From positions 50,849 through 114,848 of IMG/VR virus record IMGVR_UViG_3300029258_002722: 64,000 nucleotides of DNA; one strand, written 5' to 3'. Each line of letters begins with the position of its first letter. Within the stretch, counting starts at the first letter, position 1. Below are positions 19,129 to 62,494 of this stretch, piece after piece. A model generated the notes under the pieces. It was given only the letters and a program-made list of their open reading frames with translations. It made no database searches and had not been told where the DNA came from. The DNA comes from a virus. The position numbers were made by a program, and so were the translations under genes.

Positions 19129-19146
19129 TATAAGGAGCTTAATAAT

Positions 19147-20214: not shown

Positions 20215-20243
20215 ACAATTTATAATACGCGAATAGGTGAATA

Positions 20244-21320: not shown

Positions 21321-21487
21321 TACTGTCCTCCCATAGGGGAATAATGGTATAATTCATTTAATTATACTTTAGATTAAATATAAGCAATAATGTGCTAAAT
21401 TCTATATGGTTTTCCTATAGGACAAGGTACATTTTTTTTAAAGATACATTTCAGTTCGTTTCTTAACTAAGAGTTGGAGATAAAATT

Positions 21488-22576
21488 ATGCCAATGATAA
21501 AAGGTCAGAATAGAAAAGGATTACAATATAAACAAAATGTCGATCCGAGCAATCCTAATACAGGGGATTCTTATTATTATAAAGATGAAGGAGATATAAA
21601 AGTAAGAGGAGACTCTGAATGGAAAAGAGTATTAGGTGGATATGGACCGGGAGATAAATATGGTTATGTAGCAGGAGGTCGGCCAGCTCCAAATAAATCT
21701 TCAACAATAAGTAGGATGACTTTCCCATTTGACTCAGGGACTGCTTCAATAATAGGAACATTGTCAGGAAGTCGAGCATATTTTGGAGCATGCAATTCAT
21801 CTAATTATGGATTTGTAATAGGCGGAGAACAAGGTTCGGGATATATTTCAACTATTGGTAGAATTGAATTTCCATTTGACTCAGGAAGTTCAAGTCATGT
21901 AGGAAATTTACCAGTTATTTCAAGATATGCGGCAGCTTGTAATTCTTCAATTCATGGTTATAATATGGGAGGTTACCCTTCTCTTGCAGCATCATTTGTT
22001 CATAGATTTACTTTTCCATTTGACTCAGGAACTGCAGATCGTGTTGGAGATTTATCAGGATTAAGAAGTCATGCAATGAATTGTTGTAATTCTTCTCAAC
22101 ATGGATATTTAATAGGCGGTTATAATGGATCTCTTGCGACGACAAATATACATCGAATAACATTTCCATTTGATTCAGGAACTGTCCCAGTGACTGGAAA
22201 TTTAAGTGGCTCAAGAAGAAGTGGTTCTCAATTTAATTCATCAACTCATGGATTTCATTGTGGAGGTTATAGTGGAGGAATTATATCTTCAATTGAGAGA
22301 ATGGAATTTCCATTTGACTCAGGAACTTCAAATAATGTTGGCAATTTAAACTCTACTGCAAATCAATTATCAGGAAATAATTCAACTGAACATGGATTTT
22401 CAATTGGTGGATCAAATGCTAGTGGAGATCATTCATTTATAAGTAGGATTACATTTCCATTTTCTTCAGGTTCTTCTTCAGTTGTTGGAAATTTATCATA
22501 TGCTTGTGAAGGGTCTGCATCATTTGACGGAGTTGATTTTGTTTCATTATTTAATCCAGGTGGAACTAATTCATAA
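21488..22576 (+). CDS. Six-repeat beta-propeller-like adhesin (copy 3 of 6)
   Basis: A 362-residue paralogue: N-terminal domain (DPSNPNTGDSYYYKDEGDIKV), six units with cores such as IGRIEFPFDSGSSSHVGNL, ending ASFDGVDFVSLFNPGG. The 167-base gap before it contains a palindrome (TCCTATAGGA) and an eight-base T tract but no late-type promoter element. The start is preceded by GAGTTGGAG. Confidence 0.65.
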   Translation: MPMIKGQNRKGLQYKQNVDPSNPNTGDSYYYKDEGDIKVRGDSEWKRVLGGYGPGDKYGYVAGGRPAPNKSSTISRMTFPFDSGTASIIGTLSGSRAYFGACNSSNYGFVIGGEQGSGYISTIGRIEFPFDSGSSSHVGNLPVISRYAAACNSSIHGYNMGGYPSLAASFVHRFTFPFDSGTADRVGDLSGLRSHAMNCCNSSQHGYLIGGYNGSLATTNIHRITFPFDSGTVPVTGNLSGSRRSGSQFNSSTHGFHCGGYSGGIISSIERMEFPFDSGTSNNVGNLNSTANQLSGNNSTEHGFSIGGSNASGDHSFISRITFPFSSGSSSVVGNLSYACEGSASFDGVDFVSLFNPGGTNS

Positions 22577-22588
22577 AGGAGAATTATA

Positions 22589-22627
22589 ATGTCAGGAATT
22601 TCAGCAATAATATTTTGGAGTGAATAA
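22589..22627 (+). CDS. Twelve-residue relic of the glycine-rich adhesin family
   Basis: An ATG with an excellent site (AAAGGAGAATTATA) opens MSGISAIIFWSE and then a stop. The first seven residues equal the start of the 261-residue glycine-rich protein, and IFWSE equals its end (VFWNE) with one change, so the middle has been removed in frame. It is either a deletion relic or a translated micropeptide. It was found by reading the gap by eye, and expression is uncertain. Confidence 0.5.
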   Translation: MSGISAIIFWSE

Positions 22628-22633
22628 TATAAT

Positions 22634-22939
22634 ATGAAAATTGATAAATGCGAATTTAAGGAATGCGAAGAAAAGATAAAAATAGACAATCATCATATAC
22701 ACTCTTTATCAAAAGGAGGAAAAGACAAACCTTGGAATAAATGTAAAGTATGTCCTAATTGTCATAGGAAGATTCATATGGGTGAGATTATAATTGAGGG
22801 AAGATTTGAGACAACTGCAGGAAATACAATTGTATATAGAAATAAAGGGGAGAAATCAATAACAGGTTTTCAAGATCCTCCTGTTTGGTTATACCAAGAT
22901 TTGAGAGGAGAAACCAATGAAAGTATTAATAGTAGATGA
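22634..22939 (+). CDS. HNH endonuclease-like zinc protein
   Basis: A 101-residue protein with paired cysteines (C6, C11), the HHIH cluster at residues 20-23 and C40/C43 in CPNCHRKIH ending at H48. This is the zinc-binding beta-beta-alpha core of small HNH proteins. Free-standing HNH nucleases cut DNA and often behave as homing elements in phage genomes, so this may be mobile. Its end overlaps the next gene's start by 23 bases. A purely structural zinc role is also possible because no second domain is present. Confidence 0.7.
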   Translation: MKIDKCEFKECEEKIKIDNHHIHSLSKGGKDKPWNKCKVCPNCHRKIHMGEIIIEGRFETTAGNTIVYRNKGEKSITGFQDPPVWLYQDLRGETNESINSR

Positions 22940-24125
22940 TGAAAAACAAATAGTTAAATTATTATTCGAGTTTCTTAAATTATCAAACTTTGAGTCTGTA
23001 AAGTCTTATGGAATAAAAGATGCTTTAGATAAATTTGATAATACATTTGATGTAGCTATTATAGATCGTTATTTACAAGATGGTGATGGCGTTCATTTAG
23101 CTAAGAAACTTAAAAAAATAAAACCATCTATTAAAGTTATTATAATGAGTGGAGGAGGAAATAAATTCTTCTCTGATATCAATACAATGCTTTCATCTGG
23201 AATAAATTCAATATTATTCAAACCTTTCACCAAAGAAGAATTATTCAATCAATTAACACAATTTCATATATACAACTTTTCTGCTGAAGATAAATTAAAG
23301 TTCATTCAAGACATTATTGATATGGCAAATAACTCAGATGATATTTTAGATATCATTAAGACTATTGTCCATATGATTAAAGACTTTATGCAAGTTGATG
23401 TTGCTGGATTAAGACTTAAACATATGAATGATTACCCATACTTTACAACAAAAGGTTTTCCTGACAACTTTATAAAAGAAGAGATGTCTTTATGTCCTAA
23501 GACTAAATTGTTTGATAAAGACCCGATTCTTGATTGTATGTGCGGTAACATAATACAAAGGAAACTTTCATCTGACTTACCATGTATAACTGATTATGGA
23601 AGTTTCTTTACTGGTGAGTCTACAAAGATATTAAAAGAAATTGATAAAGATAAGTTTAGAGATATTTGTAATAAATATGGTTATGAGACAGTTGCCCTAA
23701 TACCTCTTAAAGAAAATGAAATTACTTATGGTCTATTACAAATCAATGATAAGAGAGTTAATGCTCTTAATTTAAAAGATGTATTATTTTTAGAAGAAGT
23801 ATCTAAATGTATTTGTATAGCTGTAAGTAGAGCTATATTGGAAATTAAAGAAAGCAAGTTATATGAACTCCAAGGATTATTGTCAAATCTTACTAAAGAT
23901 TGTCATGAGCTGAATCAACCTATTATGATTTTATTAGGACTTTCAAATATATTAAGTGAACCTAAAAAGTTAACAGAGAAAAGACTTAATGATCTTAAAA
24001 ATGCCACAACTCGATTAATGTTCACTACTAAAAAGATCACCCATATGTTATCTGAAAAATCATATGATGTTAAAGAGTTCTTCGATTCAGGTCTTATGTT
24101 AACCAATAAAGAACAGGAGAAATAA
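22917..24125 (+). CDS. REC-GAF-HisKA signalling protein lacking the ATPase domain
   Basis: A 402-residue protein. A receiver domain (residues 1-118) keeps the acidic pair D7-D8, phosphoacceptor D50 in VAIIDRY, S78 in IIMSGG and K102 in FKPF. A GAF domain follows (about 130-315) with CMCGNIIQ, GSFFTGES and YETVALIPLKEN...GLLQINDKR, a pattern common in bacterial hybrid sensor kinases. Then comes a HisKA-like helix with DCHELNQPIMILLG (about residue 334). No HATPase_c domain follows, so it cannot phosphorylate itself. It may act as a phosphate sink or decoy for a host phosphorelay. Host origin is likely. Confidence 0.75.
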   Translation: MKVLIVDDEKQIVKLLFEFLKLSNFESVKSYGIKDALDKFDNTFDVAIIDRYLQDGDGVHLAKKLKKIKPSIKVIIMSGGGNKFFSDINTMLSSGINSILFKPFTKEELFNQLTQFHIYNFSAEDKLKFIQDIIDMANNSDDILDIIKTIVHMIKDFMQVDVAGLRLKHMNDYPYFTTKGFPDNFIKEEMSLCPKTKLFDKDPILDCMCGNIIQRKLSSDLPCITDYGSFFTGESTKILKEIDKDKFRDICNKYGYETVALIPLKENEITYGLLQINDKRVNALNLKDVLFLEEVSKCICIAVSRAILEIKESKLYELQGLLSNLTKDCHELNQPIMILLGLSNILSEPKKLTEKRLNDLKNATTRLMFTTKKITHMLSEKSYDVKEFFDSGLMLTNKEQEK

Positions 24126-24126
24126 C

Positions 24127-25176
24127 ATGAAAAAATATCCAATAGGAATGTATTGTATATGGCCAGATCATGACTATATCGAAAGATGTATTCAAGCAGG
24201 TGTTAATACAATTGGAGTTGTCATGACTAACTTCTCTTTAGAAGAAGATATATCCCATGATCACTATGGACATTACTTTGAAGTCATAGAGATGTTAGAA
24301 AAATATTCAAAAGATGATAGAGTCGATATAGTCCTCATACCTACCTTAAATACATGCTTCGCTGATAAACCTGAAAGAATGTGTTTCCATGATGGAGAAA
24401 AATACCTTAGACGAACACCTTGTCCATTAAGTAAAGAATGGATTTCTTCAAGACTTAATATAGTTGCAAAATTAGTTAGTGTTTATAATGTCAAAAGTGT
24501 AATGTTTGATGTTGAGCATTATAATTGGAGAACTCCAGCAGTTGAAGAAATATGGGATGGTAAATGGAAACCTGACCATAAATGTCATTGTCCAAGATGT
24601 AAAGACTTTACTAAAAAAGAACAATGGAAGCTTCATCATAAGGAATTTAAAACACAACTTAAGAAAATGAATTTAGATGAGTCAGGACAATTAGCTTATT
24701 TCAATCTTTGGAACTTTGATAAATATACTGGAAAGAAATGGTTATGGACTGAGAAGACTTATCCTATACATAAGAAACCAAGTAAATCATTATTTTGGAA
24801 ACATCATTCAAGTATGTGGGGAAGAAAATTCTTTGCTAGATTATTATATGGACAAAAGGTTCATATATCAGCTGGTCTTTGGATAGAGCGATTTACAGCT
24901 AATGATTTTATAGATTATATTGAACTCATGGGTAAGAAGTCTATATATGATGGATTTTGGATTTACCCTCAAGCAAGATTATCTAAACACACAAGATTTA
25001 AAAGAGACACTCAAGAAGATAGATATAAAGGTAAAGAATACTTTGGTCTTATTGATGATCCTCATGCCGAAGGTTCTAATGTAAACTTCTTCCTTAACTT
25101 AAAAGAAGTTATTGAAGAAATAAAAGATTATAGAAAGGGTTGGATATTTAAGTTGAGAAACTTGATTAAACTTTAG
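24127..25176 (+). CDS. Hypothetical TIM-barrel-like protein
   Basis: A 349-residue protein of unrecognised family. Its N-terminus (YPIGMYCIWPDHDYIERCIQ) and the spaced strands GVNTIGVVM, VDIVLIPTLN and VKSVMFDVEHYNW look like successive beta strands of an alpha/beta barrel. The acidic pair in FDVEHYN sits where catalytic acids lie in many glycoside hydrolases, an inference only. A CHCPRC motif near residue 157 could bind metal. It starts two bases after the previous stop, so it is translationally coupled to the signalling protein. It ends in TAG. Confidence 0.5.
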   Translation: MKKYPIGMYCIWPDHDYIERCIQAGVNTIGVVMTNFSLEEDISHDHYGHYFEVIEMLEKYSKDDRVDIVLIPTLNTCFADKPERMCFHDGEKYLRRTPCPLSKEWISSRLNIVAKLVSVYNVKSVMFDVEHYNWRTPAVEEIWDGKWKPDHKCHCPRCKDFTKKEQWKLHHKEFKTQLKKMNLDESGQLAYFNLWNFDKYTGKKWLWTEKTYPIHKKPSKSLFWKHHSSMWGRKFFARLLYGQKVHISAGLWIERFTANDFIDYIELMGKKSIYDGFWIYPQARLSKHTRFKRDTQEDRYKGKEYFGLIDDPHAEGSNVNFFLNLKEVIEEIKDYRKGWIFKLRNLIKL

Positions 25177-25185
25177 GTAAAGAAA

Positions 25186-25329
25186 ATGAAAGTGATTAAA
25201 GAAATTGATTCAATAAAGAGAATAAGAAAACCAGTAGCTCCGCCTTCTAAAACATTTGGAGGAACTCCTAAACAAAATAATAAACGTAATAGGAAAAAGA
25301 GCAAACAAGATATTAAAAATAATTACTAA
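25186..25329 (+). CDS. Small basic hypothetical protein
   Basis: A 47-residue protein too short for most gene finders. It starts MKVIKEIDSIKRIRKP and has a lysine- and asparagine-rich, strongly basic tail (NNKRNRKKSKQDIKN), so it may bind nucleic acid. GGTAAAGAAA is a weak site, but the frame exactly fills the gap between two genes (10 bases after one, 15 before the next). Confidence 0.5.
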   Translation: MKVIKEIDSIKRIRKPVAPPSKTFGGTPKQNNKRNRKKSKQDIKNNY

Positions 25330-25344
25330 TTGGAGGATTATATA

Positions 25345-26400
25345 ATGCCAATCGCAGTCGATTCTAAAAATTGGGGTCCTGAATATACTCAAGGAGTTGC
25401 TCCATCAAATCCTAAAAATGGAACATCTTGGTTTGATACTTCTGAAAATAAGTTAAAAGTTTATGATGGTCCGAATACAAGTTGGACTTGGATAAGAATG
25501 CCAGTTCCAGGATTTGGGTTAGTTGCAGGTGGATATAATGTTTCAACAAATGTTGATAAAATTATATTTCCTTTTGACTCAGGAACTACTTCAACTGTTG
25601 GGACTTTATCAAGAGCAGCAGATTGTAGAGGAGCATGTTGTAATTCAACTGATTATGGATTTATATTTGGAAGTTATGGAACTGCTCATACATCTGCAAT
25701 TGATAGATTGACATTTCCTTTCGATTCAGGATCTTCAGTTCATATTGGTAATTTATCTCAAAGTAATAATACTTCTGGAGCATATAATTCATCTGAGCAT
25801 GGATTTAATACAGGCGGAGGTTATGGAGCAGACCAATCTCATGTATCAAGAATATTATTTCCATTTGCTTCAGGAACTGCAAGTAATGTTGGGACTTTAA
25901 CTACTTCATCAGAAGGAGTTTCAGGATGTAATTCTTCTGTACACGGTTTTACATTCTTTGGATATTCCGGAGCATATCAAACAAATATTGAAAGAATTAC
26001 ATTCCCATTCAATTCAGGAACCGCAAGTCATGTAGGAAATACTTCAATAGGAAGAAACTCTGGTAATGCATGTAATTCATCTGAACATGGTTATTTATTT
26101 GGAGGAAATGGGTCTCCAGGAAGAATCTCAGCAGTCGATAGAATAACATTTCCATTTGCTTCAGGAACTGCAAGTCATCTTAGTAATTTATCTCAAAGTA
26201 ATTATAATATGGCGGGTTGCAATTCAGATACTTATGGATATTCAAGTGGTGGAAGATTAGTTTCAGTAAGAGTATCTACAGTTGAGAGATTTACCTTTCC
26301 ATTTTCTTCAGGAACTTCTTCAATTGTTGGAAATATAAGTGCATCAAAGAACTATTGTGGAGGAATTGATAATACTGATTTCAATAATATGTTTGTGTAA
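25345..26400 (+). CDS. Six-repeat beta-propeller-like adhesin (copy 4 of 6)
   Basis: A 351-residue paralogue: N-terminal domain (APSNPKNGTSWFDTSENKLKV), six units with cores such as IERITFPFNSGTASHVGNT, ending GIDNTDFNNMF. The ATG at 25345 is chosen because TTGGAGGATTATATA precedes it with proper spacing; an upstream TTG in frame overlaps the site itself. Confidence 0.65.
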   Translation: MPIAVDSKNWGPEYTQGVAPSNPKNGTSWFDTSENKLKVYDGPNTSWTWIRMPVPGFGLVAGGYNVSTNVDKIIFPFDSGTTSTVGTLSRAADCRGACCNSTDYGFIFGSYGTAHTSAIDRLTFPFDSGSSVHIGNLSQSNNTSGAYNSSEHGFNTGGGYGADQSHVSRILFPFASGTASNVGTLTTSSEGVSGCNSSVHGFTFFGYSGAYQTNIERITFPFNSGTASHVGNTSIGRNSGNACNSSEHGYLFGGNGSPGRISAVDRITFPFASGTASHLSNLSQSNYNMAGCNSDTYGYSSGGRLVSVRVSTVERFTFPFSSGTSSIVGNISASKNYCGGIDNTDFNNMFV

Positions 26401-26411
26401 TGTTATATAAA

Positions 26412-26425
26412 GAACAAACTATAAA
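26412..26425 (+). promoter_or_regulatory. Late-type promoter element (copy b)
   Basis: GAACAAACTATAAA followed by TACG, one base away from the consensus. It lies 25 bases before the next start codon and opens the transcription unit that includes the large glycosyltransferase. Confidence 0.6.
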
Positions 26426-26449
26426 TACGAATAATTAAATGGTGAACTC

Positions 26450-26689
26450 ATGAAAGATAAAATTGAAATGTGTTGGAATAAGGATGAATTTAAAAACTTA
26501 ACTGAAAAAGAGGTTAGGTTTAATATTAAGAAACGTGAAGAATTAATAGGTGATATGGTAGGAAGTTTATATCCTAGTATATTAGAAAATGAAATATCTT
26601 TATTAAACGAATGTCTTGAACACATTAAAATGCGAAAGGATGCTATATGGCACAAACAATTGAACATCTCGAAAAAGCATTACTTATAG
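26450..26689 (+). CDS. Small helical hypothetical protein
   Basis: A 79-residue charged, predicted helical protein (LTEKEVRFNIKKREEL and ENEISLLNECLEHI), with no recognised family. The site before the ATG is only GGTGAAC. It overlaps the next small gene by 43 bases. The arrangement of two overlapping small genes and a glycosyltransferase behind one late-type promoter suggests a single operon. Confidence 0.45.
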   Translation: MKDKIEMCWNKDEFKNLTEKEVRFNIKKREELIGDMVGSLYPSILENEISLLNECLEHIKMRKDAIWHKQLNISKKHYL

Positions 26690-26922
26690 TCATTGAGAAT
26701 AGAGATAATATTAAAAACTTTGATATGCTATATGATCAATTAGATAATGCAATATGTCATTATAAAATTGAAAAGAGACTTCCTCCTTATGATGAAGAAA
26801 GAGACAATGAGGATAAATTCAAAACTGAATTAACATTCGAAGAACAGAGACATGGGAGATTTGTGAATGATAAAGAGACCAGCGAAGATAGGACCGAAGA
26901 AGAAACGAAAAAGAGTTCTTAA
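26647..26922 (+). CDS. Small acidic helical hypothetical protein
   Basis: A 91-residue protein: helical first half (EHLEKALLIVIENRDNI), acidic second half ending ETSEDRTEEETKKSS. The AAAGGATG site lies inside the previous gene. Its end overlaps the glycosyltransferase start by 56 bases, so translation is coupled. No family is recognised. Confidence 0.45.
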   Translation: MAQTIEHLEKALLIVIENRDNIKNFDMLYDQLDNAICHYKIEKRLPPYDEERDNEDKFKTELTFEEQRHGRFVNDKETSEDRTEEETKKSS

Positions 26923-28720
26923 TACTGATAGAAAGATAACTCCTGTATTAAGAGAAAAAAGTGAGTTTATAGAATTGGTGAAAACCATAAGAGAAAAGGT
27001 AGATAAATCTATGAAAACTGAAAAAGTAGGTTTTGGTAATCCATGTTTTATTAAAATGCTAAGACAACTTGAAATTCAAATAAGAGCGAATAGTCAATTC
27101 GATCAAGCAACATGGGAAACATTATCAGAGTTACCTGATTGGGAATATCGAATTGTCCAAGACTTTATATTAAGAGTTAATATGGCAAAGGATTCTGGAG
27201 ATTTAAACTTTGTCTATAAAATGTATGAGCAAGCTGATAAGTTATTACCTTCTAAAGTAAATCCAAAATATGACTTATTAATATGCTGTGTTAAAAGAGA
27301 TGAGAAAGATATATGTTTAACAGATGCTTGGAATAGACTCATTGTCCCTAATGGACTTAAACATAAGATCATTGAGATATGGGGTTATCAAGTAACTAAA
27401 GGAAGAAACTTTGCTGTTGAACAAGCATTGAAATTAGGAGCAAGATACTTACTCTTTATAGACGATGATGTTATAGCTCCTAATAATGCTTTAATGAAAT
27501 TATATAACTTAATGAAAGAAGAGGAAGCTCCAGCAACTTCAGCATTATATTATAAAAAGGTTGAACCTTTGGAAGCTCCATTTGAAAATGATGGAGGTGA
27601 GATTATAATTCCAAAGACAGATAAGCTTAAAGCAAATGAAGAAGCAGCTTCTCATATTCAACCTGCTAATAAAATATGTGGAATGGGATTTGCATTATTG
27701 GATTTAAAACAAATCACTCAGGACGTGGCATTACCGTTGTTTTGGGAGTTTGGAGCACCAGATGGATATTGGTCAATGGGAGAAGACGCATTCTTCACTC
27801 AGAACCTATTTGAACGGACTAAGAAAGCTTGTCTCATAGACACATCAATTAAATGTTTACATATGGATAAAGTATGGAAGAGGATATATGGAGAAAGAGA
27901 TAATGAAGTTGTATATTCCACTGGCATATGGGATCATACTGACATTAAACATTTTGAAAGAATGCGTGTCCCTCCTGAGTATCCTCTTATATTAGTTTGT
28001 ATTCCAACGAGAGATGATAAAGAACCTGTAGCATGTAACCTTGATGAACTTATGTTATTAAGAGGTTATAGGACAGAGTTATTCAGACCTTTTGGAATGG
28101 GAGTTGATGAGGTAAGAAATGTATGTGCTCAGGAAGCTCTTAAAAGGGAAGCTCAATATTTACTCTTTATTGATAATGATGTATTGCCACCTCAGACTGG
28201 ACTTGTTAAGTTATTAGAGCACATGGAAAATATTGATGAACCTTGTGTCATATCAGGTAATTATTATATGAAAGGCGATCCTGATGATTCAGCATCTTTA
28301 CAATTAGATCCTGATAACAAGAGACATCCAGGAATTGTTACTGATATGAATAGGACAAGAGTATTCAAAGGTGGCAATTTATTTAAATGCAATTGGTTAA
28401 TTGGATTAGGGTTTGCTCTTATAGACACAACTATATTTAAGCAAGCAAGACAACCTTGGTTTCAATGTTATGCTAAAGGGAAACATTCTGATGTGAATGA
28501 GGATGCTCATTTTACTGAATTATGTTTTCAAAATGGATATAATGTATATATTGATCCAAAGATTGAATGTCTTCATATAGACTTTAACAATCAAATGATA
28601 TATGGGAAGTTTGATCCAAATAAAAAGTATGCTCAATTTCCTAATATGTTAACACAATATAGATTATTTACAAGAGAACCTATTGCTCATGAGGTGAAAT
28701 CTGAAATAAAAGAAAAGTAA
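26867..28720 (+). CDS. Double GT-A (GT2-like) glycosyltransferase
   Basis: A 617-residue protein with two tandem GT-A-like domains. The first has YLLFIDDDVIAPNNALMKL with D199-D201. The second has YLLFIDNDVLPPQTGLVKL with D436-x-D438. These DxD motifs normally hold the metal and sugar nucleotide. Each domain also has the matching downstream signature (ICGMGFALLDLKQ then SMGEDAFFT; LIGLGFALIDTTIF then DVNEDAHFTELC), so both may be active. A basic N-terminal segment (KKKRKR) precedes them. It may glycosylate tail proteins or host glycans; the acceptor is unknown. Confidence 0.75.
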   Translation: MIKRPAKIGPKKKRKRVLNTDRKITPVLREKSEFIELVKTIREKVDKSMKTEKVGFGNPCFIKMLRQLEIQIRANSQFDQATWETLSELPDWEYRIVQDFILRVNMAKDSGDLNFVYKMYEQADKLLPSKVNPKYDLLICCVKRDEKDICLTDAWNRLIVPNGLKHKIIEIWGYQVTKGRNFAVEQALKLGARYLLFIDDDVIAPNNALMKLYNLMKEEEAPATSALYYKKVEPLEAPFENDGGEIIIPKTDKLKANEEAASHIQPANKICGMGFALLDLKQITQDVALPLFWEFGAPDGYWSMGEDAFFTQNLFERTKKACLIDTSIKCLHMDKVWKRIYGERDNEVVYSTGIWDHTDIKHFERMRVPPEYPLILVCIPTRDDKEPVACNLDELMLLRGYRTELFRPFGMGVDEVRNVCAQEALKREAQYLLFIDNDVLPPQTGLVKLLEHMENIDEPCVISGNYYMKGDPDDSASLQLDPDNKRHPGIVTDMNRTRVFKGGNLFKCNWLIGLGFALIDTTIFKQARQPWFQCYAKGKHSDVNEDAHFTELCFQNGYNVYIDPKIECLHIDFNNQMIYGKFDPNKKYAQFPNMLTQYRLFTREPIAHEVKSEIKEK

Positions 28721-28731
28721 GGAGATATCTA

Positions 28732-28899
28732 TTGACTGATAATACATGTGAAGATTGTTTTCATTGGAAAGATCTAAATAGTGGGTCTTTAGGACAATGT
28801 AGATGTGAAGAGTCTCCGAATTACAATTGTGTTTTACCTAAGTTAAATGAGATATGTAAAAAATATACTGACAAAAAGGAGATAAGTAATGTCAAATAA
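28732..28899 (+). CDS. Small Cys-rich zinc-ribbon-like protein
   Basis: A 55-residue protein read from TTG at 28732, which is preceded by AAGGAGATATCTA. It contains CEDCFHW, QCRCEE, YNCV and EICKKYTD, seven cysteines in the spacing of the small CxxC-H-F/W proteins common in phages. It overlaps the next gene start by 11 bases. The protein at 49588 has a related CLDCIHF start. The TTG start makes it easy to miss. Zinc binding is inferred; the function is unknown. Confidence 0.55.
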   Translation: MTDNTCEDCFHWKDLNSGSLGQCRCEESPNYNCVLPKLNEICKKYTDKKEISNVK

Positions 28900-29992
28900 A
28901 TGGTCAGGTGTTAAGTCAATAGTTGATTATTATCAAGATGAAGAACCAAGCAATCCTAAAGAAGGGGAGATTTGGTATCGTCCAAGCGCTAAATCTTCTT
29001 ATTTATATAATGGAACTGAATTTAGAATTGTGAGAGGATATGATAGTATTGTCGGAAGATATGGATATGATATAGGAGGGGTTTCATCATCCAGATTTTC
29101 TACAATAGATAGAGTATTGTTTCCATTTGACTCAGGAACTTCAACCGTAGTTAGTAATTTGACTCAAGAGTCTACTGGAGCAGCGGCTGCTAATTCTTCT
29201 CAATATGGTTTTATAATGGGAGGGGAAGGAAATGCAGGAGCGACTACAAGTTTAATTAATAGAATTGATTTCCCATTTGACTCAGGGACTTCAACTACAC
29301 TCGGTGGATTAAGTTATTCAAGACACCATTCAGCAGGATGTAATTCAACAATTCATGGATTTACAATGGGAGGGTCTGGAGGATCTTATCATTCAAGGAT
29401 TGACAGAATAACTTTTCCATTCAATTCTGGAAATAGTTCTAATGTTGGAAATTTAAGTGCTTCAACTTCATATAATGCAGGATCTAATTCATCAAATTAT
29501 GGTTTTTCTTCTGCTGGATTTTATCATGACGGATCTTATCATCGTCAAACTACAATTAATAGATTAACATTTCCATTTGACTCTGGCCCAGCAAATCATG
29601 TTGGAAATTTAGCTATTACTTCAAGCGGAACTTATTCATCTCCAGCATGTAATTCGTCAACTCATTCTTATCAACTGGGAGGATATATAACTGGCGGAGA
29701 TGTTTATTCAACTATTGCTCGATGGACATTTCCATTTGACTCTGGAACCGCAAATAATGTTGGAACATTATCAGTATCTCTTAAAAATTCACATACAACT
29801 GTAAATTCAAGTAATTATGGATATTCGATGGGAGGATATAGACAAGATCAACCAGTTCCTTATCAATCAACAATTGAAAGATTTTTATTTCCATTTGACT
29901 CAGGAACTGCCTCATCAGTCGGAAATTTAACTACGACAAAATCAAATACAGTAGGAGTTGATGAAACAGACTTTGTAACTCAATTTATATAA
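28889..29992 (+). CDS. Six-repeat beta-propeller-like adhesin (copy 5 of 6)
   Basis: A 367-residue paralogue, the longest of the six: N-terminal domain (EPSNPKEGEIWYRPSAKSSYL), six units with cores such as INRLTFPFDSGPANHVGNL, ending GVDETDFVTQF. Loop lengths vary more here, for example the long loop before unit 4 (FYHDGSYHRQ), which may reflect adaptation of the binding surface. AAAAAGGAG lies before the ATG. Confidence 0.65.
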   Translation: MSNKWSGVKSIVDYYQDEEPSNPKEGEIWYRPSAKSSYLYNGTEFRIVRGYDSIVGRYGYDIGGVSSSRFSTIDRVLFPFDSGTSTVVSNLTQESTGAAAANSSQYGFIMGGEGNAGATTSLINRIDFPFDSGTSTTLGGLSYSRHHSAGCNSTIHGFTMGGSGGSYHSRIDRITFPFNSGNSSNVGNLSASTSYNAGSNSSNYGFSSAGFYHDGSYHRQTTINRLTFPFDSGPANHVGNLAITSSGTYSSPACNSSTHSYQLGGYITGGDVYSTIARWTFPFDSGTANNVGTLSVSLKNSHTTVNSSNYGYSMGGYRQDQPVPYQSTIERFLFPFDSGTASSVGNLTTTKSNTVGVDETDFVTQFI

Positions 29993-30002
29993 GGAGTTTA
30001 TC

Positions 30003-30113
30003 ATGTTTAACTTTATAAAACTTTGGTTAATATATTTATTAGCATATGAAGATTTATTAAATAGAGAAGAAGTTGAAGATGAATGGGATTTAATAGAGAA
30101 ATGCTGGCATTGA
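30003..30113 (+). CDS. Small hypothetical protein with hydrophobic N-terminus
   Basis: A 36-residue protein (MFNFIKLWLIYLLAYEDLL, then the acidic NREEVEDEWDLIEKCWH). A well spaced AAGGAG precedes the ATG and the gene fills the gap after the fifth propeller. The first 14 residues are hydrophobic and could insert in a membrane. Confidence 0.5.
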   Translation: MFNFIKLWLIYLLAYEDLLNREEVEDEWDLIEKCWH

Positions 30114-30130
30114 TACAATTACGTTTTAAA

Positions 30131-30144
30131 GAACAAATTATAAA
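30131..30144 (+). promoter_or_regulatory. Late-type promoter element (copy c)
   Basis: An exact GAACAAATTATAAA preceded by TTTTAAA, 36 bases before the start of the sixth propeller gene. Confidence 0.6.
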
Positions 30145-30166
30145 ATCAACTTAGGAGATATAAATT

Positions 30167-31234
30167 ATGTCATTATCTCAGATAAAATCGTTAATTACAT
30201 ATAGACAAACAGAGACACCTGTCAATCCAAAGAAAGGTGAAATGTGGTTACACACAGTTTCTCAAGTTATAAAGTTATGGAAAGGGAGTGAATGGGAAAT
30301 AATTTGGGGAGGATCTGCAAAAGGAAGTGAATACGGATATATACTTGGAGGACATATTGGTTCTTATGTTTCAGGAATTGATAGAATTACTTTCCCATTT
30401 GATTCAGGAAATTCTTCAAATGTTGGTAAGTTAACTTCAGCTAGATATCAAGGAAGTGGTTGTAATTCTTCAGCATATGGGTTTTCTTCTACAGGAAATC
30501 CATCATCTGGTGTTTATTTGTCAAATATTGAAAGAATTGAATTTCCTTTTGACTCAGGAACAGCAAGTCAAGTTGGGAATACTTCTAGTCAAAAAGGTTA
30601 TATTAAAAGTGGTTTTAATTGTTCAACATATGGATATGTATGTGGCGGTTATAATGGTTCTACAGATTTATCAACAATTGATAGAATTGTATTTCCTCAA
30701 GACTCTGGAACAACAAGTCAAGTTGGAAGTTTAACAGCTCAAAGATATGATTATGCTGGATTCAATTCTTCTGAACATGGATTTTGCTCCGCTGGATATA
30801 GGTTTTCAGGATTTGTAACTCTTTCAAATATTGATAGATTGACATTTCCTTTTGACTCAGGAACGTCAAGTATAACTGGAAATTTAACAATTAATTGTAG
30901 ATATCCCTCAGGTTGTAATTCTTCTGAACATGGATTTAATATGGGAGGATCCCCATCAACGGCAGTTTCAAATATTGAAAGAATGTCATTTCCATTTGAC
31001 TCAGGAACTGCAAGTCATGTTGGAAATTTAAATAATACAATATCGGATGCTTGTGGAGGAATTAATTCAACTATACATGGATTTAATGCGGGAGGATATT
31101 CTTATTTTTCAAATATTGAAAGATTGACATTTCCTTTCAATTCAGGAACGTCAAGTATAACTGGACATCTTTCAATTGGAAAAAATGGCGGAACTGGAGT
31201 TGATGGGGTTGACTTCGTTACTCAATTTGTATAA
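30167..31234 (+). CDS. Six-repeat beta-propeller-like adhesin (copy 6 of 6)
   Basis: A 355-residue paralogue with an N-terminal domain (TPVNPKKGEMWLHTVSQVI), six units (for example IDRLTFPFDSGTSSITGNL; unit 3 has FPQDSG in place of FPFDSG) and the closing GVDGVDFVTQF. It has its own late-type promoter element, unlike copies 1-5, which suggests that the adhesins may be expressed at different levels. A 123-base AT-rich gap with a weak hairpin (CTATAC...GTATAG) follows. Confidence 0.65.
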   Translation: MSLSQIKSLITYRQTETPVNPKKGEMWLHTVSQVIKLWKGSEWEIIWGGSAKGSEYGYILGGHIGSYVSGIDRITFPFDSGNSSNVGKLTSARYQGSGCNSSAYGFSSTGNPSSGVYLSNIERIEFPFDSGTASQVGNTSSQKGYIKSGFNCSTYGYVCGGYNGSTDLSTIDRIVFPQDSGTTSQVGSLTAQRYDYAGFNSSEHGFCSAGYRFSGFVTLSNIDRLTFPFDSGTSSITGNLTINCRYPSGCNSSEHGFNMGGSPSTAVSNIERMSFPFDSGTASHVGNLNNTISDACGGINSTIHGFNAGGYSYFSNIERLTFPFNSGTSSITGHLSIGKNGGTGVDGVDFVTQFV

Positions 31235-38701: not shown

Positions 38702-39046
38702 ATGGCAGATTATGCACAAATAATTGATGGCGTTGTTAATCGAATTGTAATTGATAAACAATCTGATCTTGATGCTCTATTAGCAAAAGGTTTAGAGATT
38801 CAGGACGTTACTGAGGAAGACCCAAAACCAAGTACAGGTTGGACATATGATGGGAATGATTATCATGCTCCAGTATATGAATGGGCGAAAATAGTAAGTG
38901 ATGCTGTTGATTCAATTGTTGAATATAATGACGTTGACGCTCAAGCTGCAATTGCTGGAGGAGATAATTTAGTAAACATTGATCAAATAATTCCAAAACC
39001 TGAAGTAGGTTGGGGTTATGCAGATGGAATATTCACAGCACCTTAA
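38702..39046 (+). CDS. Two-repeat GW-motif virion protein (copy 1)
   Basis: A 114-residue protein made of two repeats of about 57 residues, each with YAQIIDGVVNRIV / AKIVSDAVDSIVE and ending PKPSTGWTYDGNDYHAP / PKPEVGWGYADGIFTAP. The PxPxxGWxYxxxxFxxP ending is a frequent phage tail or fibre-tip module. The next gene has the same two-repeat plan, so a dimeric unit was duplicated. A structural role is likely. Confidence 0.6.
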   Translation: MADYAQIIDGVVNRIVIDKQSDLDALLAKGLEIQDVTEEDPKPSTGWTYDGNDYHAPVYEWAKIVSDAVDSIVEYNDVDAQAAIAGGDNLVNIDQIIPKPEVGWGYADGIFTAP

Positions 39047-39061
39047 TAAGGAAAATAAAAT

Positions 39062-39406
39062 ATGGCAAAATATGTTCAAGTAGAGAATAATGTTGTAGTT
39101 GTTGAATTTGGGAGTCCTTTTGTTGCTGACAATTTGATAGCTCAAGGCAAAACAATTATCGACGTTACAGACATAATTCCTCAACCTACAATTGGTTGGA
39201 CATATGAGAATGATGAATTTGACATGCCATTAATTCCACATGCTTTAATTGAAGACAATGTAGTCACTAACATTGTAAATTTATATAGAATTGAATCTTG
39301 GTATAGGATTGAAGAGCTTGGAGAGAACTTTATAGATCTCACAAATAAAAGTCCAATACCAGAAGTGGGTTGGAGTTATATAGACGAAAAATTCATTGCT
39401 CAATAA
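39062..39406 (+). CDS. Two-repeat GW-motif virion protein (copy 2)
   Basis: A 114-residue paralogue of the preceding gene with two repeats (YVQVENNVVVVEF...PQPTIGWTYENDEF and HALIEDNVVTNIV...PIPEVGWSYIDEKF). Length and repeat phase are identical although the sequences have diverged, so the duplication is old. AAGGAAAATAAAAT is upstream. Confidence 0.6.
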   Translation: MAKYVQVENNVVVVEFGSPFVADNLIAQGKTIIDVTDIIPQPTIGWTYENDEFDMPLIPHALIEDNVVTNIVNLYRIESWYRIEELGENFIDLTNKSPIPEVGWSYIDEKFIAQ

Positions 39407-44178: not shown

Positions 44179-44667
44179 ATGAGAAATTTGAATGATAAGA
44201 TTCCTGGAGCACCCAACTTTAGGTATGGCGAATTTGTAAAATCAATGACTGCTATAAGACATGGAATTGATAATATTCCTACTGATGAAAATGTTTGGTT
44301 AAGTATTGAAAAGTTAGCAGTTAATGTCTTACAACCTATAAGAAATCAGTTTGGAAGACTCAGGATTGAATCAGGTTATCGTTGTCCAGAGTTAAATGTA
44401 AAAATTGGTGGAAGTAGTACAAGTAATCATTGCAGGGGAGAAGCTGCAGATATTGAACCAGTCGAATCCAATATTACATTAATTGAAATTTTTAATTTTA
44501 TTGTTGGGAAACTTGAGTATAGAAATACAATTGCTGAGTATTTTCCTAATGGGTGGATTCATATAGACTATAGAGAATATGCTAACTCTAAAATTATTAA
44601 ATTGAAAGACACAACTTATCATTATGCGAAAGTTGCTCCAGAGTTTGTGAATAAATTATATGCATAA
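44179..44667 (+). CDS. M15-family zinc peptidase (endolysin-type)
   Basis: A 162-residue protein of the peptidase M15 (D-Ala-D-Ala carboxypeptidase/endopeptidase) family. SGYRCPELN is the conserved entry, SNHCRGEAADIE provides H84 and D91, and GWIHIDYRE provides H128 as the third zinc ligand. These enzymes cut peptidoglycan peptide cross-links. There is no signal peptide, so it needs a holin or acts from the virion. With no membrane gene adjacent, the function could be lysis or cell-wall digestion at entry. Confidence 0.85.
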   Translation: MRNLNDKIPGAPNFRYGEFVKSMTAIRHGIDNIPTDENVWLSIEKLAVNVLQPIRNQFGRLRIESGYRCPELNVKIGGSSTSNHCRGEAADIEPVESNITLIEIFNFIVGKLEYRNTIAEYFPNGWIHIDYREYANSKIIKLKDTTYHYAKVAPEFVNKLYA

Positions 44668-58525: not shown

Positions 58526-59326
58526 ATGATAATATATAAAGCAACCAATATAATATCTAAAAAATGTTACATTGGCCAAACTAAATTTTCTTTAGATAAA
58601 AGAAAAACTCTTCATCTAAATAGTTCTAAGAGAAATAAAGATAATTTGTATTTTTATAATTCATTACGAAAACATGGTAGTGATAATTTTGAATGGAAAA
58701 TATTATGTGAATGTGATAGTAAAGAAGAATTAGATGAAATGGAATTTCATTATATTAAACAATATAATTCTTTATCTCCAAATGGTTATAACTTAACTCT
58801 TGGTGGAGAAGGAACTCATGGATATAAGAGATCTCCAGATCAGATAGAAAGAATGAGTAAAAATGCAAAGATATTTTGGAAAAATGTATCAGACGAATAT
58901 AAAAAAGAATTTTCAAATAGAATAAAGAATCTTCATACAGGAAAGAAATTAACTAAAGATCACAAATTGAATATTAGCAAATCTAGAAAAGGAAAAGGTC
59001 CAAAAAATATATCAGAAGAACACAAGAAAAAGATTGGAGATGGAGTAAGAGGACAAAAAAGAACAACACATACAAAAAAATTGATGAAGCAAAATCAATT
59101 AGGAAAAAATAATAGTTTTTATGGAAAATGTCATACTAAAGAACAACTTGAAAAAATGAGTAGGACTATATTTCATATACTTGATGAAAACGGTGATATA
59201 CATAAAACAAAAGTTTTTTCTGTGTGGTGTAAAGAAAATAATATTAAAGCTTCAAGTCTTCATTACCAATCTCTTAAAAATAAATTTTTTAATGGATATA
59301 AAGTCATCAAAAAAATCAAAATATAA
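58526..59326 (+). CDS. GIY-YIG homing-type endonuclease
   Basis: A 266-residue protein. The GIY-YIG core is IYKATNIISKKCYIGQT (residues 3-19), with a downstream arginine (R26) and a glutamate in MEFHYIKQYN. Two to three NUMOD3-type DNA-binding repeats follow (TGKKLTKDHKLNISKSRKGK, SEEHKKKIGDGVRG), then a helix-turn-helix-like segment (VFSVWCKENNIKASSLHY). This is the layout of phage free-standing homing endonucleases (SegA type). The weak binding site (AGGAG, 17 bases upstream) and isolated position suit a mobile gene. Confidence 0.85.
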   Translation: MIIYKATNIISKKCYIGQTKFSLDKRKTLHLNSSKRNKDNLYFYNSLRKHGSDNFEWKILCECDSKEELDEMEFHYIKQYNSLSPNGYNLTLGGEGTHGYKRSPDQIERMSKNAKIFWKNVSDEYKKEFSNRIKNLHTGKKLTKDHKLNISKSRKGKGPKNISEEHKKKIGDGVRGQKRTTHTKKLMKQNQLGKNNSFYGKCHTKEQLEKMSRTIFHILDENGDIHKTKVFSVWCKENNIKASSLHYQSLKNKFFNGYKVIKKIKI

Positions 59327-59411: not shown

Positions 59412-59906
59412 TTATGCTACTTTCTTTTTAGGCATATATCTATTTGGATTCAACATTACATCCAGGATATATCTCTGAATTTTTGGGCAGAATTCTTGAT
59501 AAATAGTTCCCAGGCGATTATTCCTGTATTTATCAAAACCCATAGAGCTTGGAATATAAATCTCATCATCAAAAATCCAATTTACACGGACTCCAACTCC
59601 AAGATCGTCATCTTCATATTTAAGGTTATTTGTTACATAACCTACTGCCATAACACAAATTGAAGTTGATGACGGACCAAATGCCTTTAGGTATATAATA
59701 TCACCCATTCTAACTTCCATCATTGCATTTGCAATTTCAGGAACTTCGGTCAAATTAAATCCTACACAAGCATAACCTTGTTTAAGAAATTCATCAACCA
59801 TCCAGGCGCTGCCATATCGAGCACCCCAACCCCACATCCTTCTGCCATGTAATAAAGCATTAATAACAGGATCCGGAATTACTTTACGTGAAGCTAACTT
59901 TTTCAT
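59412..59906 (-). CDS. EVE/PUA-like domain protein
   Basis: A 164-residue protein starting at the ATG with GCGAGAG upstream (an in-frame TTG lies 36 bases earlier). The order WGWGARYGSAWMVDEFLKQG, VEVRMGDIIYLKAF, then VMAVGYV and GVRVNWIF resembles EVE/PUA-like domains that read modified nucleic-acid bases, where tryptophans form the pocket. The link is by pattern only. It has its own promoter-like element and operator-like palindrome, so its regulation differs from that of the tail genes. Confidence 0.5.
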   Translation of the reverse strand: MKKLASRKVIPDPVINALLHGRRMWGWGARYGSAWMVDEFLKQGYACVGFNLTEVPEIANAMMEVRMGDIIYLKAFGPSSTSICVMAVGYVTNNLKYEDDDLGVGVRVNWIFDDEIYIPSSMGFDKYRNNRLGTIYQEFCPKIQRYILDVMLNPNRYMPKKKVA

Positions 59907-59986
59907 AAGTCTCTCGCTTTCGCTCAAAAATAAGTTGAGCAATAAAATTAATAAACGTCTTCAATGAGGAAGACAAATAAGTAAAA

Positions 59987-60124: not shown

Positions 60125-60358
60125 ATGAGTACAAATAGATGTGATTCAGGACACAGTAAAGGCGTTTCAACTTCTTGTATGCACTGTGACAATTTAGGAC
60201 TTGTTAATGGCGAAATTCTTGTTGAATATGACGCAGCGAATAACAAACCTGAAGTTAAGAAATTTAGATGCAAATATTGTGGAGTTGTATCAAACCAAAT
60301 CAACCCACACAACCTTGTAATTTCACAAGCTGAATGGGATGCCTATATGGCAATGTAA
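60125..60358 (+). CDS. Small paralogue A with zinc ribbon (upstream of metacaspase)
   Basis: A 77-residue protein; ATGGAGGAAATATC supports the ATG at 60125. Two CxxC pairs (CMHC at 18-21, CKYC at 49-52) form a zinc ribbon around EILVEYDAANNKPEV. It ends NLVISQAEWDAYMAM. The two following genes keep the xVxxxDxxxNxPEV core and the QAExDAYxAM ending but have lost most cysteines. This strong conservation of a short C-terminal motif in three tandem genes is unusual and may mark a binding or processing signal. Confidence 0.6.
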   Translation: MSTNRCDSGHSKGVSTSCMHCDNLGLVNGEILVEYDAANNKPEVKKFRCKYCGVVSNQINPHNLVISQAEWDAYMAM

Positions 60359-60385
60359 TAACCATTTTTAAAGGAGAATATTAAA

Positions 60386-60670
60386 ATGGCAGATAAACAA
60401 TTATTTACAAATTCAAAGATCAACAATGGCGGACAAGCGGTTGGAAATCATTGCACAGGTATTGGTCAATTAAAGAAAACAGTTATTTTGAAATATGATC
60501 AATCAATTAATCAACCAGAAGTATTTATCGTTCAGGATCCTAATACAGGAGAATATCAATATACTGATATTGATGCAAGAGACCTTGTATTAACTCAAGC
60601 TGAAATTGATGCATATCTTGCAATGAAAACAATTCCAGCTCAGGATCCTTGGTATCAACCTCTTGTTTAA
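60386..60670 (+). CDS. Small paralogue B (upstream of metacaspase)
   Basis: A 94-residue protein: NSKINNGGQAVGNHCTGIGQ, VILKYDQSINQPEVFIV, DPNTGEYQYTD, then LVLTQAEIDAYLAMK and a 15-residue tail (TIPAQDPWYQPLV). One cysteine remains where paralogue A has its first CxxC. The zinc ribbon has decayed but the fold and the QAExDAY motif persist. AAAGGAG is upstream. Confidence 0.6.
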   Translation: MADKQLFTNSKINNGGQAVGNHCTGIGQLKKTVILKYDQSINQPEVFIVQDPNTGEYQYTDIDARDLVLTQAEIDAYLAMKTIPAQDPWYQPLV

Positions 60671-60709
60671 AGAGGCATGTTTTAAAAATTTAAAATTAAG
60701 GAGATAATT

Positions 60710-60952
60710 ATGTCACTTGAAGGAGAAAAAAGAACCACTGGTCCAAATATAAATAATGAAGCACCTGGTGTTGGAGCACATTGTCAAGGAACTGGTCAGA
60801 TGAAAAGAACTATTCTTAGAGAAGCTGACGCAACAGGTCCTGAGGTTGTTAGAGTTTCAGATCCTCAAACAGGATATGCCGAAACCTTTGTAAATACAAT
60901 GGGCAGAACATACACTCAGGCGGAGTATGATGCTTATAAAGCAATGACTTAA
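60710..60952 (+). CDS. Small paralogue C (upstream of metacaspase)
   Basis: An 80-residue protein: NINNEAPGVGAHCQGTGQMK, LREADATGPEVVRVSDPQTG, then RTYTQAEYDAYKAMT. It ends directly on the shared motif. AAGGAGATAATT is a strong site. It is separated from the metacaspase by a hairpin, so expression of the two need not be equal. Confidence 0.6.
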   Translation: MSLEGEKRTTGPNINNEAPGVGAHCQGTGQMKRTILREADATGPEVVRVSDPQTGYAETFVNTMGRTYTQAEYDAYKAMT

Positions 60953-60962
60953 TATATAAGGA

Positions 60963-61007
60963 AATGTCCAGTTCACATACTTGAGAATAGTTTGTTGACT
61001 GGACATT
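60963..61007 (+). terminator. Hairpin between paralogue C and the metacaspase
   Basis: A perfect 10-bp stem (AATGTCCAGT with ACTGGACATT) and 25-base loop, followed by ATATTTTATATG. It may terminate most transcripts from the late-type promoter and leave low metacaspase expression. Confidence 0.6.
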
Positions 61008-61016
61008 ATATTTTAT

Positions 61017-61892
61017 ATGAAAAAAGCTCTATTGGTTGGAATTAATAAGTATTCGGATACTCCTCTGAGAGGTTGTGTAAATGATTGTGTTTTGATGTAT
61101 AAAGTCCTTTCTGAAAAGTTTGGATTTGATACAAAGAATATTAATCTTATTACTGATCATGAGTGCACAAAAGAAAATATCCTACGCAATCTCAAATTAT
61201 TAACATCCAATGTTAAAGTTGGAGATACTATTTATTTTCATTACAGTGGACATGGATCTCAAGTAGTTGTAAATGATTGGTCAAATACAACTGAGGCAGA
61301 TGGTCTTGATGAAATACTTTGTCCTGTTGATCTTAGCTGGGATGATCCATTGAGAGATAATGATTTAAATAGAATTTTCAGGTCAGTTCCTGTTGGAGTA
61401 AATGCAGTTGTTGTATTAGACTGCTGTCATTCAGGATCTGGGTTAAGGAATTCACCTCGTTATATTTCAGAGTATGAGTCTGAACAACATGACTGGGTGA
61501 ATAGATTTTGTCCACCTCCCCCATCAAATATACTTTCAAATCCAAAGATATCCATAGACGATCATCTTGGTTTTTTAATGCCAAAGACGAATCCAAAGGA
61601 TTTACAAACTGTAAGAAATTCATTTCTCACCAATACAATAAAACAAGGTAATGCCATTCTTATCTCAGGTTGTCAGGAAAACCAAACAAGTGCTGACGCG
61701 TGGATTGGGGGAAGATATCAAGGAGCTTTAACTTACACTCTTGTTAAAATGCTTCAAAAAAATGATTACAAAATGAAATTTAGAAGTGTGGTTAAAGCAG
61801 TTAATAAAAATTTACATCGAAGAGGTTTCGATCAAAATCCTCAATTAGAATGCAAAGATATATTCTTTGATAAAAATTTCTTATTCGTCTAA
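61017..61892 (+). CDS. Metacaspase (caspase-like, peptidase C14)
   Basis: A 291-residue protein with the complete type I metacaspase core. The start strand is KKALLVGINKYSDTPLRGCV. The catalytic histidine is H79 in FHYSGHGSQ. EADGLDEILCPVD is the substrate-pocket loop. The catalytic cysteine is C137 in VLDCCHSGS. LISGCQENQTSAD and GALTYTLVKML complete the p10-like part. These enzymes cut after Arg or Lys, normally calcium-activated. There is no signal peptide or extra domain. Bacterial versions act in stress and cell death; phage copies are rarely noted. No ribosome binding site is visible; the start lies 9 bases after a hairpin. Confidence 0.85.
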   Translation: MKKALLVGINKYSDTPLRGCVNDCVLMYKVLSEKFGFDTKNINLITDHECTKENILRNLKLLTSNVKVGDTIYFHYSGHGSQVVVNDWSNTTEADGLDEILCPVDLSWDDPLRDNDLNRIFRSVPVGVNAVVVLDCCHSGSGLRNSPRYISEYESEQHDWVNRFCPPPPSNILSNPKISIDDHLGFLMPKTNPKDLQTVRNSFLTNTIKQGNAILISGCQENQTSADAWIGGRYQGALTYTLVKMLQKNDYKMKFRSVVKAVNKNLHRRGFDQNPQLECKDIFFDKNFLFV

Positions 61893-61903
61893 GGAGAATC
61901 ATA

Positions 61904-62494
61904 ATGAGCGATTCTATATATAAATTGAAAAAGACTTTAGTTGATTTTGTTGCAAATACTAAGTTGTATCCATTTCCTGGCTTTATATTGTTTGGGGAGG
62001 CAAGTTATAAAGTCAAGGGTCCTTTAATGAGAAAGATCCTTAATGAAATTCAGCCAGGTGATATTTTAATAAGAATGTACGGTCATTACATTGGGTCTTA
62101 TTTTATTCCAGGATATTGGACACATGCTGCTCATTACGAAGGACCTAATAATGTAATTCATATGCTTGGAGAAGGAATTGTTGAAGAAGACATACTTACA
62201 TTTTTAAGATGTGATGATGTAGCTTTATTGAGATCTAAAAAAGGAACCGAGTCTGTTCAGGCAGCAATTAAAGAAGCAAGATTTTTATTAGACAAATCTA
62301 ATAATGATCCAAATTATAAAATAAGATATGACTATGACTTTAAATCAGGAAATACTAATTTTTATTGTACTGAATTTGTTGCTCATATTCATAAATTAAA
62401 TTATCCTAAAGATAAAATGATAATGCCTGATAAGTTTCCTAAAGATCCTGATTTAGAAATCATAATTCCTGGACGCAGAGAAGGTTCTATTTAA
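61904..62494 (+). CDS. Permuted NlpC/P60-like (YiiX-type) papain-fold protein
   Basis: A 196-residue protein with the order typical of the YiiX/EbsB permuted group: LNEIQPGDILIRMYG, then GYWTHAAHYEGPNNVIHML (H74), then VALLRSKKG and finally FYCTEFVAHI (C155). In this group the His and Cys are permuted relative to classical NlpC/P60. They hydrolyse amide or ester bonds in cell wall or lipids. No signal peptide. It follows the metacaspase after 11 bases with AAGGAG, so the two proteases are likely co-expressed. Confidence 0.7.
   Translation: MSDSIYKLKKTLVDFVANTKLYPFPGFILFGEASYKVKGPLMRKILNEIQPGDILIRMYGHYIGSYFIPGYWTHAAHYEGPNNVIHMLGEGIVEEDILTFLRCDDVALLRSKKGTESVQAAIKEARFLLDKSNNDPNYKIRYDYDFKSGNTNFYCTEFVAHIHKLNYPKDKMIMPDKFPKDPDLEIIIPGRREGSI

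Follow-up and report, generated by a model that had tools for sequence, protein, structure and literature searches.

Gene content and organization of the locus

The window analysed here is a 64,000-nucleotide stretch of DNA that forms the final 64 kb of a 114,848-bp IMG/VR virus record (designated G000 in record-level comparisons). It carries many tail-fibre-like genes and an M15 endolysin gene at 44179–44667, and it therefore derives from a phage of bacteria. Decoration-like genes are also present, and at least six paralogues of 355–367 aa with repeated GG...R..FPFDSGT units, kelch/propeller-like and probably tail-associated, lie at 18046–31234. Rfam and tRNA scans gave no matches.

Positions 60125–62494 hold five open reading frames on the plus strand, all of them at the positions assigned in the initial annotation. 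The first three encode small proteins. Paralogue A (60125–60358, 77 aa) has two CxxC pairs and is zinc-ribbon-like, and paralogues B (60386–60670, 94 aa) and C (60710–60952, 80 aa) carry DPxTG in place of the second CxxC pair. Pairwise BLASTP gave E values of 2e-11 for A–B, 9e-10 for A–C and 9e-18 for B–C, and the QAExDAYxAM and HC motifs are common to the three proteins, confirming that they are true paralogues, as had been proposed. A tandem pair of 114-aa paralogues was also found at 38702–39406; small-protein duplication is therefore not unusual in this phage.

The fourth gene (61017–61892) encodes a metacaspase and is preceded by a hairpin at 60953–61020 on the same strand, with perfect 10-bp arms (AATGTCCAGT/ACTGGACATT) followed by a U-rich run. 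The predicted stability of the hairpin is -26.5 kcal/mol (z = -4.9), a value reached by none of 200 shuffled sequences. Both its outer helix and the U-rich run extend to the metacaspase start codon. The window contains no further copies of the hairpin, and promoter-like matches around it were not above chance. A Shine-Dalgarno (SD) match of at least 4 nt was present in 56 of the 58 window genes checked, and the metacaspase gene is one of the two that have none; the other is a GIY-YIG homing-endonuclease-like open reading frame at 58526–59326. It is possible that the hairpin is the terminator of the A/B/C genes, a control structure of the metacaspase gene, or both, and metacaspase expression appears to be under separate control through the hairpin and the SD-less start.

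The fifth gene (61904–62494) starts 11 nt past the metacaspase gene with a strong SD sequence, and it encodes a 196-aa permuted papain-like protein of the C92 (YaeF/YiiX) family with a WTHAA His motif and a YCTE Cys motif. The match to Pfam PF05708 (E = 3.3e-7, 30.9 bits against a curated cut-off of 27) bears out the earlier description of a permuted papain-fold protein beside the metacaspase. Upstream of the five genes, outside the range covered by that description, a gene on the minus strand (59412–59942) encodes an EVE/YTH-like (PUA-fold) protein of 164–176 aa, depending on the start.

The metacaspase and its conserved residues

Metacaspases are caspase-like protein-cutting enzymes that are best known from cell death in plants, yeast and bacteria, and they are discussed as kin of the ancestors of cell-death proteases. 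The 291-aa product of 61017–61892 matched Pfam Peptidase_C14 (PF00656, E = 5.6e-34) over residues 2–281, spanning both p20 and p10. The closest solved structure in a PDB search was Arabidopsis metacaspase-4 (E = 3e-33), and the AlphaFold2 model (pLDDT 80) gave plant metacaspases 4 and 9 as its top Foldseek matches. The protein is thus very probably a metacaspase-family enzyme. Its p20 and p10 regions lie in a single chain, with the p10 motif QTSADA at residues 223–228. The catalytic domain begins at residue 2, leaving no place for the N-terminal prodomain of type I metacaspases, and about 70 residues separate the p20 and p10 motifs, compared with the linker of about 160–180 aa that defines type II. 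No membrane anchor was predicted.

The catalytic residues named in the initial annotation, H79 and C137, were correctly positioned and show no variation among the 30 aligned phage proteins. The same holds for C20, D23, S77 and D135, the expected Arg/Lys pocket, which we take from motif spacing to correspond to the acidic S1 pocket residues C92, D95, S156 and D211 of Trypanosoma brucei MCA2. The EADGLDE stretch, previously read as the pocket, is instead the acidic region of the putative calcium site, where D95 and E99 are each conserved in 28 of the 30 proteins and D114 in all; W108, C219 and D227 are likewise identical throughout the alignment. Since C20, D23, S77, H79, D135 and C137 are invariant among divergent phage proteins, activity is presumably under selection. 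Judged from these residues, the protein is predicted to be an active cysteine endopeptidase that cleaves after Arg or Lys, and it probably needs calcium.

Phage relatives and their changing neighbourhoods

Relatives of the metacaspase were found in the GenBank phage LR745208 (485 kb) and at 36 IMG/VR loci. L021 duplicates LR745208 and L013 and L024 are near-identical, and the set contains 31 distinct metacaspase-like phage relatives, or 32 with the protein of the window. Most of the records that carry phage metacaspases are fragments. A tree was built from the window's protein, the 31 phage proteins and 32 bacterial relatives, with the distant caspases L036–L039 set aside. The result showed that the window's metacaspase falls in a phage-only clade with L007, L008 and L009 (support 100/100), nested in a larger phage clade (96/82). 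Phage and bacterial labels interleave in the tree, so that six changes are needed and at least four are forced, implying more than one origin of the phage family or exchange with bacteria.

The neighbourhoods differ among these phages. In the syntenic loci L008 and L009 genes for a family-A DNA polymerase, a clamp loader and a single-stranded DNA-binding protein (SSB) are followed in order by the metacaspase gene, RecA and an EVE-like gene, so that SSB and RecA flank the metacaspase, in a block that also includes QueC- and/or DpdA-like genes. In L007 it is found among tail-fibre-like genes and an HD-domain gene, with a QueC-like gene about 2.4 kb off. The metacaspase genes of L031 and L032 adjoin an amidase and an M15 endolysin gene, respectively, and tail or baseplate genes are among the neighbours in L007, L011 and L034. 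Between the syntenic records G002 and G003 the metacaspases are 55% identical, compared with 73–75% for RecA, the polymerase and the clamp loader, as expected for a fast-evolving accessory gene.

The phage proteins also vary in architecture. A membrane anchor was predicted in six of the 32, at the C-terminus in L010–L012 and L015 and at the N-terminus in L014 and L016. Two others contain an active-site intein with an HNH endonuclease (L034:4651–6615 and L035:4516–6594; Pfam Intein_splicing, E = 9.9e-17 and 6.5e-21), inserted directly past the catalytic His-Gly (SGHG|C...HN|SQV), the kind of conserved site that inteins favour.

The C92 gene was present in just two of 30 other metacaspase-bearing records, in one of them 111 kb and in the other about 6 kb away from the metacaspase gene; the homologue at 111 kb, in G002, is 33% identical (E = 1.5e-34). 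C92 was accordingly rejected as a conserved partner, and it is at most a co-transcribed neighbour of the metacaspase. Relatives of A, B and C were found neither in IMG/VR viral contigs nor in GenBank phages by single-sequence and alignment searches, nor did whole-record searches of the 30 other viral records with a metacaspase gene, many of them fragments, find any. On these searches, the three proteins seem private to the virus of the window, and they were dropped as candidate conserved partners.

A proposed accessory role and its alternatives

The reading we favour, tentatively and at somewhat less than even probability, is that the enzyme is an accessory Arg/Lys endopeptidase, spread horizontally, for host takeover or counter-defence. 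Large phages would hold the metacaspase as a moron-type gene passed between them, and the protease would act inside the infected cell on host proteins, or less likely on phage proteins. The role in takeover or counter-defence, taken alone, is about as probable, perhaps slightly less so. The Pfam, PDB and fold matches and the invariant active-site and pocket residues argue for a working protease, and its accessory nature is consistent with 31 distinct phage relatives, with phage and bacterial sequences interleaved in the tree, and with contexts as different as an SSB/RecA/polymerase/DpdA block, tail fibres, an endolysin and baseplate genes. However, the six membrane-anchored copies and the two adjoining endolysins would also fit an envelope or lysis role, and the linkage to an EVE-like gene may point to a DNA-related one. 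The 32 phage copies, with their strictly conserved active sites, form a testable set for asking what bacterial viruses do with a death-type protease.

A role as a lysis factor, in which the metacaspase would act on proteins of the membrane or envelope to time or execute lysis, is unlikely. Endolysin genes lie within 1 kb of the metacaspase gene in G024/L031 (Amidase_2, 2e-22) and G025/L032 (M15_4, 1e-16), holin-like or lipoprotein genes are neighbours in L030, L031, L035 and L041, and six of the phage enzymes have the N- or C-terminal anchors noted above. However, such proximity to an endolysin was seen in just two of 31 records, in a search that took in three endolysin families. The separation is 16.4 kb in the window and 9.5, 18 and 123 kb in G001, G009 and G015, respectively, and in G002 and G003 the metacaspase gene is part of a replication block. 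Genes for small membrane proteins or lipoproteins were as frequent within three genes of the metacaspase (10.9%) as further out (10.6%, p = 1.0), and the window's own enzyme is anchorless. A general lysis-cassette role was therefore rejected on the mixed distances to genes of these three endolysin families and the lack of membrane-gene enrichment, and with it the lysis module suggested for the window; the enzyme may serve lysis in the two small phages with an adjoining endolysin.

It is rather unlikely that the EVE/YTH-like protein recruits or controls the metacaspase on binding to modified DNA or RNA, the modification perhaps being 7-deazaguanine. The EVE-like gene is the only neighbour in the window whose linkage to a metacaspase recurs in another phage lineage. 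Its product is 38% identical to the protein encoded downstream of metacaspase and RecA in L001/L008, with a homologue also in L009, and the two genes lie within 1.5 kb of each other in the window, L008 and L009, that is, in three phages of two lineages (1.2 kb in G002). G000 and G002 have only about 11 proteins in common, and three of them (EVE-like, metacaspase and C92) are encoded within this one 3-kb locus; by our estimate, random placement of both genes in a 115-kb record would bring them equally close roughly 2–3% of the time. The proteins common to G000 and G002 also include a gene pair at G000:C1:5895–8554 (L004), 40–41% identical, of which the second encodes an ARPP-1 protein and the first has no family assigned. 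The link between the EVE-like and metacaspase genes, drawn from two independent cases, is suggestive.

Full-length QueE-like genes were found only in G000, G002 and G003 among 31 records, the same phages that show the EVE-like linkage, and weaker radical-SAM matches occur in other records. QueC- and DpdA-like genes are present in G001–G003. Loci with QueE-, QueC- and DpdA-like genes are G000:C1:17405–18079, G002:C1:199492–205180 and G001:C1:30471–30629. Such genes suggest that the four phages in the metacaspase clade of the window modify DNA with 7-deazaguanine. Reading of modified bases is known or predicted for EVE domains (PMC7641849); that the EVE-like protein of the window reads 7-deazaguanine is only an idea.

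The assignment itself comes from fold. The window's protein matched no Pfam family at E ≤ 1, the Pfam EVE model included, and its AlphaFold2 model (pLDDT 71) matched PH1033, MJECL36, YTH domains and the EVE-HNH enzyme VcaM4I in Foldseek (probability about 1.00), with modest E values (6e-4 to 6e-3) and TM scores (0.3–0.5). A sortase identity was considered (PDB E = 8e-4; Pfam 0.026 for the L008 homologue) and discarded, as the protein has no sortase catalytic Cys motif and the fold search led to EVE/YTH domains. Against a link to the metacaspase, besides the modest fold match (E about 1e-3), the two genes are divergent in the window and separated by RecA in G002 and G003, these two records are kin and so provide only two independent cases with the window, L007 has no EVE-like gene, and an EVE-like relative in a prophage (L129:5004–5450), which adjoins an integrase gene, has no metacaspase nearby. 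Control or targeting of the metacaspase by an EVE/YTH-fold protein that reads modified nucleic acid, with 7-deazaguanine as one possible modification, is an improbable proposal, although it names a specific candidate partner in place of A, B and C. If true, it would tie proteolysis in the infected cell to DNA chemistry, whether of the phage or of the host.

A role in phage-encoded defence or in superinfection exclusion, with the enzyme acting like the caspase effectors of bacterial immunity (TIR–caspase pairs), is similarly improbable. The metacaspase matched a generic PADLOC caspase profile (1.7e-25), and the four distant caspases on proviral contigs adjoin TIR-like genes (L036:5612–6001, L037:5578–5955, L038:1790–2200 and L039:3934–4844), with ThsB profile matches in both of those tested (L037 and L038). 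However, these TIR-linked caspases align only to about residues 1–141 of the window's enzyme, beside which there is no TIR-like gene of the Thoeris-like arrangement, nor any NTPase, CARF or other sensor gene.

Still less probable is a virion-maturation protease acting on structural proteins. The window is full of tail-fibre-like and decoration-like genes, and L007, L011 and L034 have tail or baseplate genes near the metacaspase, but the metacaspase was not seen tied to capsid genes, it occupies a replication block in G002 and G003, and its patchy distribution is unlike that of an essential maturation protease.

The proposal of the initial annotation that the metacaspase cleaves these paralogues or is inhibited by them is highly improbable for A, B and C alike: the genes adjoin the metacaspase gene and are paralogous, but they were found in none of the 30 other metacaspase-bearing records, many of them fragments, the hairpin splits them from the metacaspase, and the Arg positions near the motif, taken as a possible mark of targets, are not conserved. 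Arg precedes QAE by six residues in B and by four in C, out of register, A has no Arg near the motif and its nearest Lys or Arg is 18 residues away, and a Lys or Arg within 10 residues of the motif is expected by chance in 54–65% of cases. They are probably small phage proteins unrelated to the enzyme. Of the earlier reading, the metacaspase, its intact active site and its position in a phage genome next to A, B, C and the permuted papain-fold protein are upheld; a module made up of these genes is not supported, as their linkage is not kept in related phages. Relatives have the metacaspase without A, B and C, C92 lies apart from it in the two records where it was found, and a search of phage genomes for the same neighbourhood found the arrangement in none of the 30 other metacaspase-bearing records.

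Comparison with known systems

The window's enzyme is a member of a known family. The phage clade, its variants with a membrane anchor or an intein and the link to the EVE-like gene seem not to have been described in the open-licence papers searched, where the only description of phage metacaspases found was that of metacaspase operons of Clostridium botulinum, which are phage-related (PMC3501461); an overview of jumbo phages (PMC7824862) does not mention caspases. The C. botulinum operons, likened here by description only, resemble the present case in placing metacaspase genes within phage-like gene sets. Eukaryotic giant viruses (medusavirus and HaV01) encode a metacaspase whose suggested role is to modulate death or stress of the host (PMC6450098); these enzymes, also likened by description, are likewise virus-encoded, but their viruses infect eukaryotes.

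The EVE/YTH domains of PH1033, MJECL36 and VcaM4I resemble the 59412–59942 protein in predicted fold, whereas the phage protein is stand-alone and its sequence lies below Pfam detection. Metacaspases of Myxococcota, Nitrospirota and Thermodesulfobacteriota are 36–42% identical to the window's enzyme over the whole length and have the same architecture; in contrast, the gene of the window falls in a phage clade apart from them, and no recognisable phage genes surround the bacterial sister sequences L043–L046. The metacaspases of MEROPS C14B (for example Arabidopsis metacaspases 4 and 9, yeast Mca1 and T. brucei MCA2) have in common with the phage enzyme the fold, the His/Cys dyad, the basic S1 pocket residues, the acidic calcium-site region and the QTSAD p10 motif. 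Compared with them, the window's enzyme is phage-encoded, has no N-terminal prodomain and a p20–p10 linker of about 70 aa, and carries a Trp, Trp108, that is invariant in the phage set.
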